The notes under the pieces are model-generated. The model was not told where the DNA came from and searched no databases. It saw only the letters and a program-made list of their open reading frames with translations. The translations under genes and the position numbers were made by a program. From assembly GCF_009177065.1 (NCBI RefSeq), contig NZ_WEZF01000020.1, positions 1 through 64,000 of the forward strand: DNA of 64,000 bases, written 5' to 3'. Within the stretch, counting starts at the first letter, position 1, and the number at the start of each line of letters is the position of its first letter. Positions 30,601 to 35,300 of this stretch are shown one piece after another. Source of the DNA: Tautonia marina (GTDB lineage: Bacteria > Planctomycetota > Planctomycetia > Isosphaerales > Isosphaeraceae).

Positions 30601-31159
30601 CCCGGACCCCGATGTCGAACCCGTCAATAATCAAACCGCGCAGATTGCTGTTCTTCGTGGCAAGCTCGAAGCCAACCACCTCGGGATAAACGTTCCGGTC
30701 AATCCCGCTGCCGTCCACGATCACCCGAAGCGCGGCGTTGTTCCCGTTCAAGGCCGCCACCGAGTTCGGCTCAGACTGAATGGTGGTCGGCTCGTCGATG
30801 TCGTCCGGGTAAAAGAAGGCAACCGGCACATCGGCCTGAGAAAGCCCGTCGATCGTCACCGGATCGGTCAGCACTGGCAAGGGTGATTCCAGCTCGATCC
30901 GCCAGGTCTGCGTGCCCAGGTCAAACCCCGGCACCGGCACATTCAGCCCCGGAGCCGTCGAGGTCGGAATGGCGAACTCGATATGATCCGCCCCCGGGTT
31001 CGCGTTGGCGGCCTGCATTGCCGCCCGAAGCGAGCCGGCCCCCGCGTCTTCCGTGTTGATGACGAAGAAGGTCGCCAGCAAGCACCGAGGTTCGACCCGT
31101 TCCACCCCGGCTCGGAAGCGACGCCGACGCCCCCTTCCGACGACAGCGTGCCCAGTCAT
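27650..31159 (-). CDS. Giant surface protein: LEPR-XLL-like N-terminus, parallel beta-helix, two Calx-beta domains
   Basis: GGAGG six bases before the ATG fixes 1169 residues. The basic N-terminus followed by GVERVEPRCLLATF matches the LEPR-XLL signature found at the start of large planctomycete proteins. Residues about 35-150 open with a CSLREA-type segment (TFFVINTEDAGAGSLRAAMQ). About 150-740 is a right-handed beta-helix of NLIGTD / GV-I / NTIGG repeats, many of them parallel right-handed units separated by N-rich turns. About 760-836 is an Ig-like segment. Two Calx-beta domains follow (about 836-944 and 945-1053), each with SGTLTF and IPILDDD-like strands. The C-terminus is Pro-rich. It should be exported and surface-bound, perhaps adhesive or glycan-binding. 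It is solitary; codon use is like the neighbours. Confidence 0.87.
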   Translation of the reverse strand: MTGHAVVGRGRRRRFRAGVERVEPRCLLATFFVINTEDAGAGSLRAAMQAANANPGADHIEFAIPTSTAPGLNVPVPGFDLGTQTWRIELESPLPVLTDPVTIDGLSQADVPVAFFYPDDIDEPTTIQSEPNSVAALNGNNAALRVIVDGSGIDRNVYPEVVGFELATKNSNLRGLIIDGFDIGVRVPDRSHVGNRIQGNSIGGHFLFRVDLQTGDPLPAPGDVSFQGAGISGDAIVVAGTNTTIGGFNAQENNTITLAGGRGIWIQPGAEGNQVFGNQIGVIGPTRNGVYVQAGNDLEGILIESSDDQLASSNAIGGPEPGSGNVISANGSHGVWLDGPGATRNRIEGNYIGAAPGGGYRFGAGNPGNAGDGVFVDNAPSNRIGANEDGRRNTIAANGGAGVRLSGPMAFGNLVAGNFIGTTSDGNAALGNAREGVRVELSASGNTIGEGNVISANLRGVAVVGATTRNTVIANNRIGSSGSGQGDLGNAKEGVRIDGAPDTRVIGDGDGSQIISGNNVGVAILGPTATGNLVAGSFIGTDPTGLLELNNSLQGVLIENAPGNTIGGTTTEARNLISSNHWGVDLVGAGTVNTVVQGNLIGTDLSGTLALSNEVDGVRIRDGASNNLIGGTTVEAGNVIAFSRRDGVRVEGPSIENRILTNSIFDNAGLGINLVEPLMLATGPNLLRPAPVIDRVRTSTDFANIEGSLTSVPNTAFVIQFFANETLDPSGNGEGKRYLGETVVTTNGAGVAVYSADVPGAVLPGEFVTATATDAAGNTSEFSAGVAELLGTVQFAMAVYEVDESSGEAVIAVTRTGGSGGQATVAYATMGGSAVPGVDYSPVSGTLTFDIGVNQQTFTVPILDDDLAEAVETVGLVLSSPAGAADLGDPSTAILRIVDNDQPGTIAFASPTFVVSEETGEATITVVRSAGGGSVSIEYDTRAGTAVPGVDYLPVSGTLTFGPGQLVQTFTVPILFNPGSQGSPMLGLFLDDPMGGASLGVPSSAVLTITNLEVPRVASVVPQSDRRGFLTIAIGFDRDMNGPRAEDLRNYGYSVQVPGHNRRIGTREDLLVPLGPPVYDPATRTVTLRTLKPVRPGTPVQILINQVTGIPGAGVGVADENGVLLDGDGDGRPGGTFSTVFRSPRPTPVPRPWPPFQRPAWMFRGGRLG

Positions 31160-32361
31160 GCCGCCCCTCCGTCCCTTTGGTCGGTCGATCCACCCCACGC
31201 TCGAACGCCGCTCGACACGCGGAACTGACCTCTCAGCTTCCCAAATCCCCTTGGAAGTCAGTTTAACCCCGCGAACTGCCCGTGGATGATCCTCGCCTTT
31301 TCTGCCCCGCGCACTCGCGCCGATTCTACCGAAATCTCCTAATCCAACGCCTTTCCCCCCGGCCTCCTTTTCGTTCCAAATCACCCCGCTCCCCGTCCCC
31401 GCGATTCTGGTTCCAGAACGATGGCGACCTCCTGAACCGGCCTTCTTTGTGTCGCACGCGTCCCCGCTTCGACAACGCCCTCCCAGGGGCCGTTGCCATC
31501 GTTGGGGTCTCTCATTTTTCTGGATCAGGTGACTGAATTTCCTCAATTCCCCGATGATAAAGCATGGCGGTTCGCTTCCCCGACGCTTGAATCCCTCTGG
31601 CGACCGTCTCACCCTTCCTTCGCGCGGCTCTCTTTTTTTTCTTTGGCAACCTGGCTGTTCCCCACCCAAACCACTCCCGAGGCGAGCCTGACTCGCCGGC
31701 CTGACTCGCCGAGTTGGGGCGTTTGCTCGCCTCCCGATCCCTTCGTGACGAGCGAGCCGAAGGAGCCCGAGCCGCAATCGCCACGAGGGCCATTCCGTTC
31801 ATGTCGCGAGACTCCGGCGCGAAACAAAGCCAATTCCGCGCCGTCCGTTTCTCGAAACGAACGGCACCACGCGACGTAAATCAATGACGGATATCCCTTT
31901 TCGACCTATCCCCCAGGCGCACCCAGGAGCGCACCGGAGGGCGCACCCGAACCTCCGGCCCTTCGATTCGATCCCTGGCACCCCATCTCCCGCCCGCTCG
32001 CGATTCGACGCCGATCCTTCGTGACGAAACGAACCCATTCCCCCCGGTCGCGGCGACGAAACGAACGGCGATTTGCGTCACAAGTCCTTATCAGAAAGGA
32101 AACTTCGCAAAACCTCTCAGGCGCACCCAGGGGCGCACCGACGGGCGCACCCGACGCCGTTCGGCTTCCTTCGGGTCGGCTCCTCCGGTCGAAACGCATC
32201 CCTGAGCGTTCGCGCCGTCCCGGAAAAGAAGTCCTCGAAACCCAGGCGTCATCACCTTATGATGAGAAAGGAATTCCACCCCTTTGCTTGAGCACTGCGT
32301 CTCGCACTCGGTCGTGCTCGGGATCGTGGATCCCCAATCGCCAGCCCCCGGTGATGATCGC
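31160..32361. other. 1.2-kb non-coding region upstream of the DUF1549 operon
   Basis: No convincing gene is present between the surface-protein start and the DUF1549 start. The left part is pyrimidine-rich with a 13-base tandem (GCCTGACTCGCCG at about 31685-31710). The right part carries a diverged direct duplication described separately. Both flanking genes read outwards, so their promoters lie here. Confidence 0.55.
31853..32154. repeat. Diverged direct repeat, offset 204 bp, with GCGCACC iterons
   Basis: Two copies of about 98 bases (31853-31950 and 32057-32154) each begin with CGAAACGAACGGC. Exactly 61 bases after that start, each has a 37-base block of three GCGCACC heptamers (31914-31950 and 32118-32154; 34 of 37 bases agree by my count). 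The bases between are only partly alike. This indicates an old tandem duplication with conserved ends. Confidence 0.7.
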
Positions 32362-35300
32362 ATGAGCTTCCCACCGCTTCGACTCGGCTCCGTCGGCCTG
32401 GTTCCCCTGATCGGCCTGCTCCTCGGCCTCGGTGGTCCTACCCCATCCGCGATGGCCGAGGCCCCGGACGCCCCGGATCGGGTCGATTTCGGCCGCCAGA
32501 TCCGGCCGATCCTCTCCGACCGTTGCTTCCATTGCCACGGTCCCGACGAGGCCGACCGTAAAGGGGGGCTCCGGCTCGACACCCAGGAGGGAGCCCTGGC
32601 CAAAACCCCTTCGGGAGCCCATGCCGTCGTTCCCGGCGACCTCGACGCGAGCGAACTGATCTGGCGGATCACCTCCGACGACGACCTCGACCGCATGCCC
32701 CCGCCCGACTCGGGCCGCACCCTCTCCGACGCCGAGATCGACCTGCTCCGCCGCTGGGTCGAGCAAGGGGCCGATTGGGAGCAGCACTGGTCGTTCAATC
32801 CGATCAGCGCGGTTCCCATTCCGGAGGTCAGCGACCCCTCCTGGCCGTCCAACCCGATCGACCGCTTCGTCCTCGCCCGCCTCGACGCCGAAGGGCTTGC
32901 GCCCGCCCCCGAGGCCGACCGCGATCGTCTGATCCGCCGTCTCTCGCTCGACCTGACCGGCCTGCCCCCCTCGGTCGCCGAGATCGACGCCTTCCTCGCT
33001 GACGACCGACCCGACGCCTACGAACGCCTGGTCGATCGCCTGCTCGACTCCCCCCGCTTCGGCGAGCACCAGGCCGTCGGCTGGCTCGACCTGGCCCGCT
33101 ATGCCGACACCTACGGCTATCAGGCCGACGTTGAGCGGGCCGTCTGGCCCTGGCGCGACTGGGTCATCCGATCCTTCAACACGAACATGCCCTTCGATCA
33201 GTTCCTCACCTGGCAGATCGCAGGCGACCTGATCCCCCCCGACGAGCTTGACCCCGACGACGGCTACGACCCGATCCTCGCCACCGCCTTCAACCGCCTC
33301 CACCGGATGACCAACGAAGGCGGCAGCATCGAGGAAGAATTCCGTGCCGAGTACGTCGCCGACCGCACCGACACCCTCGGCACCGCCATCCTCGGCCTGA
33401 CCATCGGCTGTGCCCGCTGTCACGATCACAAATATGATCCGATCAGCCAGCGCAACTATTACGAACTCTCCAGCTTCTTCGACAACATCGACGAATCCGG
33501 CCTCTACTCCCACTTCACCAACGCCACCCCCACCCCGACCCTGCTGTTGACCCAGGGCGACCAGGATCAACAGATCGAATCCTTTGAATCCCAGATCCAG
33601 GAGGCCGAGGCCGCCCTCGCCCACCTGGCCGACCAGCGCCGCGAGGCGTTCGACGCCTGGCTCGACCAGTCCGACCACGAGCCGACGGTCACCGGCCTGA
33701 TCGGCGACTTCCCGCTCGACGAGATTGCCAGCGACAGCCAGACGACCCCGAACCTGGCCAACCCCGACGCCCCCGGTCGCCTCGTCGATGCCCCCCAGCC
33801 GATCGACGGCCAGGTCGGCGGCGGCCTCCTGCTCAGCGGCGAAAATAGCCTTGTGCTGCCGATGGGCAACTTCACCCGAGACGACCCCTTCACCGTCGCT
33901 CTCTGGGCCAGGACTCCCGACACCAAGGACCGTGCCGTCCTGTTCCACCGCTCCCGAGCCTGGACCGACGCCGGGAGCCGAGGCTATCAGCTCCTGATCG
34001 AGGACGGACGCCTCAGCGCCTCACTCGTCCACTTCTGGCCCGGCAACGCCATCGGCATCCAGGCCATCGACCCCATGCCCCCCGAGACCTGGGTCCACCT
34101 CGCCGTAACCTACGACGGATCAAGCCGAGCCGATGGGATCACCCTTTACGTCAACGGCCGACCCGCCCCCGTCGAGGTCGTCCGCGATCACCTGGTCAAG
34201 GACATCACCGGCGGCGGCGGCGACGAGCTGACCTTCGGCCAGCGCTTCCGCGACCGCGGCTTCATCGGCGGCATGATCGACGAGGTCAAGATCGCTGACC
34301 GCCGCCTCACCCCGCTCGAAGTCGCCCACCTGCACGACGGAACCTCACTTGCCGATGCGTTCACCTCTCCCGAGGGCGAGCGCCGCGACCTGCTGTTCGC
34401 CTACTACCTGGAGAACCACGACCCCGAGTACCGAGCCCGCCTGGCCGCCCTCCGCGACCTGCGCCGCCAGCGATCGAGCCTGGTCGAGTCGATCCCCGAG
34501 CTGATGGTCATGCGAGAGATGCCCGAGCCTCGCCAGACCTTCCTGCTCGCCCGTGGGGCCTACGACGCCCCCCGCGATCTGGTCGAGTCGAACACCCCCG
34601 AGTCCCTCTCCCCCTTCCCGAGCAATCAGCCCCGCAACCGGCTCGGCCTCGCCCGGTGGCTGACCGACCCCGAGCACCCGCTCACCGCTCGCGTCGCCGT
34701 CAACCGCCACTGGAAGGACCTGTTCGGCCGAGGGCTCGTCGCCACCCCCGAGGACTTTGGCAGCCAGGGAGCCGCCCCCACCCACCCCGAACTGCTCGAC
34801 TGGCTTGCCCGGACCTTCATCGACTCCGGCTGGAACGTGAAACAGTTGATCCGAACCATCGTCACCTCCTCCACCTACCGGCAAGATTCGACCGTCGATC
34901 CGGAGGTCCGGGCCCGCGACCCCGAGAACCTCTTGCTCGCCCGAGGCCCCGCCCAGCGCCTTCGCGGCGAGACGATCCGCGACGCCGCCCTGGCCGCCAG
35001 CGGGCTGCTGGTCGAGCGCATCGGTGGAAGACCGGTCAAACCGTATCAGCCCGCCGGTATCTGGGAGGAGAACTCCGGCCAGACCTACATCCGAGACGAA
35101 GGCCCCGGCAGCCATCGCCGCAGCCTCTACACCTTCTGGAAGCGAACCGCGCCGCCGCCGTCGATGATCACCCTCGACGCCTCCGCCCGAGAGGTCTGCA
35201 CCGTCCTGCGGCCGACGACCATGACCCCGATGCAGGCCCTCTTGCTCCTGAACGACCCTCAGTATGTCGAAGCCGCCCGTGCCCTCGCCGTGCGGTCCAT

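Follow-up and report, generated by a model that had tools for sequence, protein, structure and literature searches.

The regulatory RNAs CsrB and CsrC act as sponges: a single non-coding transcript offers a short protein-binding motif many times over, as GGA in hairpin loops. Heptamer direct repeats at about 11 bp, placed beside the -35 box of the regulated gene, characterise the pho boxes of PhoB/OmpR regulators and the binding sites of SARPs. In REP/RAYT systems, palindromic repeats dispersed between genes go together with a protein family present in many copies, and the sigma-W promoter of B. subtilis reads TGAAAC-N16-CGTA. Leaders with a boxA are known from rRNA operons and CRISPR arrays. 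The locus described here lies in a window of 64,000 nucleotides of Tautonia marina DNA, by which we mean the whole stretch that was analysed. It resembles CsrB and CsrC in that a short motif is repeated within one non-coding locus. It differs from them in that there are dozens of such loci, the conserved motif is the non-GGA heptamer GCGCACC, a boxA-like site is present, and the heptamers are not presented on hairpins, none being predicted. With PhoB/OmpR and SARP sites it shares direct heptamer repeats at a pitch of about 11 bp, the 11/12 spacing included, but in its case a promoter-like leader precedes the arrays, which occupy long intergenic stretches next to genes of no evident common function; at the one locus mapped in this respect, that of the window, the candidate promoter of the operon begins 84 bp beyond the final heptamer. 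The likeness to REP/RAYT systems lies in the combination of dispersed intergenic repeats with a multi-copy protein family, here called HGL, whereas the units are non-palindromic, much longer and equipped with a promoter-like leader of their own; neither a consensus structure among 42 units nor dyad covariation was found, and scans of five HGL-type proteins in each of Pfam and NCBIfam did not find a Y1 (REP-associated tyrosine) transposase domain. CRISPR arrays differ in their long exact repeats with foreign spacers, several near-identical copies of about 24-40 bp being typical: the longest repeat in the window is a 37-bp block with two copies of 92% identity, and the stretches between the boxes are inherited and drifting, those between A boxes being alike in orthologues (C15 of G000 and C10 of G003, where G000 is the T. 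marina genome itself and G001 to G003 are three further genomes of the same genus).

Two blocks in the window and the anatomy of the unit

An earlier note on this DNA had described a diverged local tandem duplication with GCGCACC iterons upstream of a DUF1549 operon. Its account of the letters was accurate: the exact 13-base CGAAACGAACGGC is present at 31853-31865 and 32057-32069, each copy is followed at an offset of 61 by one of two 37-mers which are spaced by 204 bp and identical at 34 of 37 positions (92%), and each of these 37-bp blocks contains three GCGCACC heptamers (Table 1). The duplication itself could not be upheld, since the boxes recur with equal distances at dozens of other loci; the two blocks are two units of a dispersed family rather than an eroded local duplication. 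The element is also longer than first noted, extending over about 31529-32154, and includes a leader and a boxA-like site. Single heptamers occur in the window at chance level (20 observed versus 18.4 expected), and the four zero-mismatch matches to GCGCACC-N5-GCGCACC are all located inside the two blocks. Codon-based gene calling found no gene between the leader and the arrays in the window. A coding origin of the window array was considered and rejected, as a distance of 65 separates the A box (31853) from the heptamer codons (31918), which puts them in different frames, unlike in the coding copies described below, where the two share a frame. The sigma-70-like promoter listed last in the table is the only match in 31000-32700, compared to a mean of 0.2 in shuffled sequences, and is a candidate by consensus match only.

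Table 1 Features of the element in the window and of the adjacent promoter candidate (positions refer to the window).
Feature	Position	Strand	Remark
Leader, promoter-like GTGACTG-N14-CCCGATGAT	31529..31558	+	5' end of locus; GTGACTGAATTTCCTCAATTCCCCGATGAT at 31529
boxA-like TTCTTTGGCAACC, rRNA-type antitermination site	31639..31651	+	resembles 16S rRNA leader motif
Unit 1 upstream A box (CGAAACAAA)	31820..31828	+	next A box 33 bp further on
Unit 1 proximal A box CGAAACGAAC	31853..31862	+	first heptamer 64 bp downstream
Unit 1 B box CGTAA	31875..31879	+	N16 after CGAAAC
Unit 1 TTnCG box (TTTCG)	31899..31903	+	column conserved in logo and alignment
Unit 1 heptamer array	31914..31950	+	GCGCACC at 31917, 31929, 31941
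Unit 2 upstream A box CGAAACGAAC	32025..32034	+	
Unit 2 proximal A box CGAAACGAAC	32057..32066	+	first heptamer 64 bp downstream
Unit 2 B box, degenerate (CACAA)	32079..32083	+	
Unit 2 heptamer array	32118..32154	+	GCGCACC at 32121, 32133, 32145
Sigma-70-like promoter TCGAAA-N17-TATGAT	32235..32263	+	ahead of DUF1549 operon; outside and downstream of element

Throughout the family, a unit opens with an A box (CGAAACGAAC), continues with C(G/A)NAA, AAA and TTnCG, and closes with heptamers at steps of 11-12 bp. When the 135 A boxes lying up to 130 bp upstream of 136 arrays were considered, the distance to the first heptamer was 64-66, 75-77, 96-100 or 108-110 bp for 128 of them. The heptamers of non-coding loci are spaced by 10, 11 or 12 (20, 74 and 141 cases, respectively), with a second group at 22-24 (35 cases), whereas the spacing in the loci set aside as coding is 12 in 25 of 25 cases. 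A second box, [CT][GA]NAA, follows the A box at N15-18 in 57 of 91 proximal A boxes compared to 1 of 40 upstream ones, with a sharp peak at N16/N17. The fetched loci contain one to three exact arrays each, and L029 shows four groups. RNAalifold predicted no consensus structure for 42 aligned units (0 pairs). An RNA hairpin formed by the inverted repeat of the B and C boxes was rejected as well, since the dyad did not covary (283 pairs seen versus 306 expected, over the 55 units that allowed anchoring out of 136) and a cruder test was likewise without clear signal. Some further features were seen at individual loci. In L141 and L143 of G002, the reverse-complemented heptamer GGTGCGC stands ahead of some units, which are thus bracketed by complementary heptamers. 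Immediately beyond the arrays of L029, there are several palindromic copies resembling GTCTTACACCGTGTAAGAC (region of L073; about 1552-1834 on the reverse complement). Short CATCCGTGTTCCATCCGTG repeats occur between the units of L054, L102, L109 and others, and CATCCGTG was counted 19 times in seven loci.

Copy number, conservation and strand agreement

The pattern GCGCACC-N4/5-GCGCACC was found 141, 40, 61 and 115 times in G000, G001, G002 and G003, respectively, compared to 3, 0, 0 and 2 times for the reversed controls. For the triple pattern, 30 matches were counted in the T. marina genome and none for its reversed control, which answers the earlier call for a genome-wide search for further copies, and the pattern is present in four of the 59 genomes searched (T. 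marina included), all four of one genus. A sequence-only model built from 42 aligned units (R1) detected at least 88, 41, 80 and 86 units in G000 to G003; among 41 other genomes of the family, 39 were without match and two (G018 and G034) gave one weak match each. As the R1 search used strict filters and scored up to 89 first-look candidates per genome, the counts in the genus are minimum values, and absence should not be read as absolute. The outcome that would have refuted the earlier note, a block confined to this place and not conserved in close relatives, did not occur, units being present in all four genomes of the genus searched. The Rfam scan of 31050-32400 of the window returned a single match with an E under 5, whose 12 bits fall short of the cut-off of 34, the scan of ten fetched loci (73,609 bases) returned none, and literature searches listed nothing on point. 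In other genera of the Isosphaeraceae (G007, G015, G018, G021 and G023), A boxes (CGAAACGAACCC) were observed in pairs or in tandem with periods of 19-46 bp; the triple heptamer pattern was not found in these five genomes.

In order to compare the loci between species, 27 of 37 T. marina loci were paired with an array-bearing locus of G003. The selection on the heptamers suggested by the earlier note was supported: 1025 of 1082 heptamer positions (94.7%) are identical versus 257 of 410 (62.7%) in the 4-5 nt spacers (Fisher p 1.6e-50), in a set that favours loci fetched for an exact heptamer pair in both species and includes five coding pairs. When the coding pairs were subtracted using the per-pair list, the values were 913 of 970 and 223 of 355. 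Identity elsewhere amounted to 461 of 486 (94.9%) for the A box, 112 of 121 for the leader, 64 of 77 for boxA, 118 of 142 for the B/C columns and 15866 of 23874 for the remainder. Eight of the ten unpaired loci were checked in G003, and in six of them the orthologous gene is still accompanied by heptamers in the same orientation; one of these six, L045, has single heptamers only, together with A boxes. At L055/L327, the orthologous site in G003 is without about 1.4 kb that include the element and a small open reading frame (ORF), which looks like one larger deletion or insertion. L065 aligned without a break at 88% identity and was rejected as an element, being a chance match within an ORF. 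Altogether, position is kept in G003 for 33 of 34 real loci checked (L056 and L072 being outside the check), and examples inspected by eye in G001 and G002 keep the element beside the same gene. The locus of the window aligned badly with its G003 counterpart (heptamers 25 of 38, leader 4 of 11); by eye, the counterpart has a leader, boxA, A boxes and heptamers. The comparison of these sequences supports the view that the units are held by purifying selection.

Beyond the unit itself, the 8-mers TGTGACTG, GTGACTGC, CTTTGACA and CTTTGGCA are enriched in the element regions, each with 0 occurrences as reverse complement. The enriched 8-mers align to two motifs, GTGACTG-N14-CNCGATNNT and CTCTTTG(A/G)CAA. 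The former was taken as a promoter-like leader and the latter as a boxA-like site. For counting, 12 of 76 loci were dropped, namely 11 that were taken as tails of HGL genes or of their close relatives and the in-ORF match L065. Among the 64 remaining non-coding loci, which stem from two genomes, are largely orthologous pairs and hence are not independent, 41 have the leader core GTGACTG within the 900 bp upstream in the orientation of the element, and none has it in the reverse orientation; for the boxA-like motif the numbers are 22 and none, and 18 loci have both. The leader core is lacking in 23 of the 64 loci and a recognisable boxA in 42. Searching with the strict leader pattern gave 35, 1, 66 and 29 matches in G000 to G003, and its reversed control gave none in these four. 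Three loci of G001 (L294, L295 and L296) show, by eye, GTCACC in place of GTGACTG while the CGATNNT part is kept, as if the -35 specificity of the promoter had shifted. As in boxA-bearing untranslated transcription units, the site, where present, is located upstream of the body, on the same strand, and resembles the motif in the leader of the host rRNA. Since the 16S rRNA leaders of the hosts carry a like motif (CTCTTTGACAATCCGG in G000 and TCTTTGGCAATCCGG in G002), comparison with E. coli is not the sole ground for calling it a boxA.

The HGL protein family

In a survey of 40 fetched leader loci, 20 from G000 (outside the array loci) and 20 from G002 (some with arrays), the leader is followed after 25-209 bp by a unit-less ORF on the same strand in eight cases. 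Manual sorting assigned seven of these eight to one protein family, HGL, six by a match to the family and L145 by its N-terminal NAxxHG(L/F) motif. At L126 (G000:C5:239700-244200), the ORF behind a unit-less leader encodes a DUF433 domain (E 1.9e-9) and not an HGL protein. The ORFs called after the leaders of L120 and L122 were discarded as probably spurious, as units or A boxes occupy those places. A pattern search detected the leader ahead of nine of 17 listed ORFs. HGL matches number 25, 9, 22 and 24 in G000 to G003, and the family is present in 14 of 40 genomes searched. Five HGL-type proteins scanned against Pfam gave no match, five scanned against NCBIfam and PHROGs gave only weak ones (E 0.02 or more, none over the NCBIfam cut-off), and the HGL profile matched none of 177,635 sequences of solved structures. 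The structure predicted for one member from 28 aligned sequences is all-helical with a mean pLDDT of 79.2, reaching values near 90 or above for residues of about 45-300, and has a disordered tail. Foldseek yielded no match to this model with an E at or below 0.001 (best E 0.082), and the best VIA-align hit was a BAR domain with a Z of 7.7, a value that long helices give anyway. By these predictions, HGL is a multi-copy helical family for which no known domain was found.

The 3' coding ends of HGL genes carry the unit themselves. In 14 of 15 copies examined from the genus, the protein tail contains RNE encoded by the A-box letters and, further on, RT encoded mostly by heptamer letters. The arginine of RNE is encoded by CGA in 14 of 16 cases versus 103 of 802 elsewhere (117 of 818 overall; Fisher p 7e-11), and the A-box letters inside HGL ORFs appear to be under constraint at the nucleotide level. 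A link between motif and protein is also seen across genomes, as CGAAACGAANCCA is enriched mostly in those of the 40 genomes with HGL counts in which HGL is numerous. The table of A-box-rich versus HGL-rich genomes reads 10/1/1/28 for all genomes and 6/1/1/28 without the genus (p 2.4e-5), and the counts without the genus correlate with a Spearman coefficient of 0.45 (p 0.006); the cut-offs of 10 boxes and five proteins were set after the counts had been seen, and the genomes are related, which makes these p-values too good. The exceptions are G015, with 21 A boxes and no HGL match, and G006, with nine HGL matches and one A box. An A box lies within 1.5 kb of an HGL gene in 4 of 5 cases in G018, 3 of the 10 listed (13 in total) in G021 and 0 of 35 in G023, where 0.18, 0.17 and 0.61, respectively, would be expected.

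Possible readings and their meaning

The earlier note had proposed that the heptamer block is a binding site array for a regulator of the DUF1549 operon. The array does lie upstream of this operon and on the same strand, but dozens of loci adjoin other genes and the predicted operon promoter is located downstream of the arrays. A DUF1549-type neighbour was recognised, by eye and by one BLAST match, at two of 37 T. marina loci (the window and L026/L071). The gene next to 65 elements in the 64 non-coding loci is codirectional in 41 cases, opposite in 23 and uncalled in one (p 0.03). The arrays adjoin genes of very different kinds in which no common function was seen by eye; from their starts, we take flanking ORFs to encode gyrase A, valyl-tRNA synthetase, a sulfatase and SurE-like, AroA-like and DAHP-synthase-like proteins. 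A dedicated regulator site of the DUF1549 operon is therefore hardly credible. A more general role as DNA operator, in which the head-to-tail heptamers would bind a winged-helix regulator of the OmpR/PhoB or SARP style or an architectural protein, with the A and B/C boxes as further sites of the same complex, would fit the spacing of 7 + 4/5 bp with its steps of 11-12 bp throughout, the inverted CGnAA and TTnCG halves that do not covary, as for DNA half-sites, and the persistence of the unit inside ORFs. Against it stand the strict strand agreement with leader and boxA, a mean heptamer spacing of about 11.6 rather than 10.5 bp, nine elements in which only 13-57 bp separate the array from the stop codon of a convergent gene, and flanking genes among which no common function was seen by eye. 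We rate this reading as possible but rather unlikely.

The remaining explanations concern the origin of the units or parts of them. Leader and 3' unit occur both with and without an ORF and in high copy number, and one G003 orthologue is without about 1.4 kb that include the element, as if the loci were non-autonomous, MITE- or REP-like relics of an HGL-encoding mobile element that retained the leader and the 3' unit minus the ORF. The positions, in contrast, are stable between two species and, in examples inspected by eye, also in G001 and G002, and the helical bundle modelled for HGL has no informative fold match; such an origin seems improbable to us. Decay of HGL gene tails, with fragments kept by chance, would explain why coding tails carry the same motif set; non-coding units, however, conserve the motif letters while the rest drifts, and differ from the coding copies in heptamer spacing and in the distance from A box to heptamer, which makes this very unlikely. 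We give no more credit to tandem promoters of the ECF type (CGAAAC-N16/17-CGYAA) formed by the A and B boxes. These would account for the second box after proximal A boxes and its N16/N17 peak, but not for upstream A boxes lacking that box, the spacing of 39 in the coding copy L046, or TTnCG and the heptamers; outside the elements, N16 and N17 were found in 6 and 2 of 464 cases versus 0-5 at other spacings, with no clear excess.

The reading we prefer, to which we give about an even chance, is that the block in the window belongs to a family of transcription units found across the genus, each mostly non-coding and many of them headed by a promoter, which serve as binding platforms, perhaps for HGL proteins. 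Transcription would begin at the leader, Nus factors would load at boxA in the loci that bear it, and RNA polymerase would read through one to four tandem units. Each unit would present a linear row of conserved contacts with no predicted pairing, ending in the spaced GCGCACC heptamers, and would be bound most likely by HGL proteins, so that the non-coding loci may act as a distributed sponge or scaffold. A transcribed and largely non-coding body is favoured by the strand agreement of leader, boxA and unit together with the loci that end at convergent genes. HGL is the likeliest partner; several of its genes share the leader and have the unit written into the 3' end of their coding sequence. 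With structure missing, only the strand logic speaks for a role as RNA, and the steps of 11-12 bp leave room for binding as DNA.

We would only tentatively go further and propose a new nucleoprotein system of the Isosphaeraceae, made up of the all-helical HGL family and dozens of boxA-protected non-coding transcripts with one promoter class and one unit that is also present in the 3' coding ends of the HGL mRNAs. If so, dozens of non-coding loci, which match no Rfam family where scanned, are conserved within a single bacterial genus and tied to a large paralogous protein family in which no known domain was found. The conserved unit would then provide a ready RNA or DNA oligonucleotide probe for the binding protein, and the shared leader a handle on the sigma factor that drives these loci.
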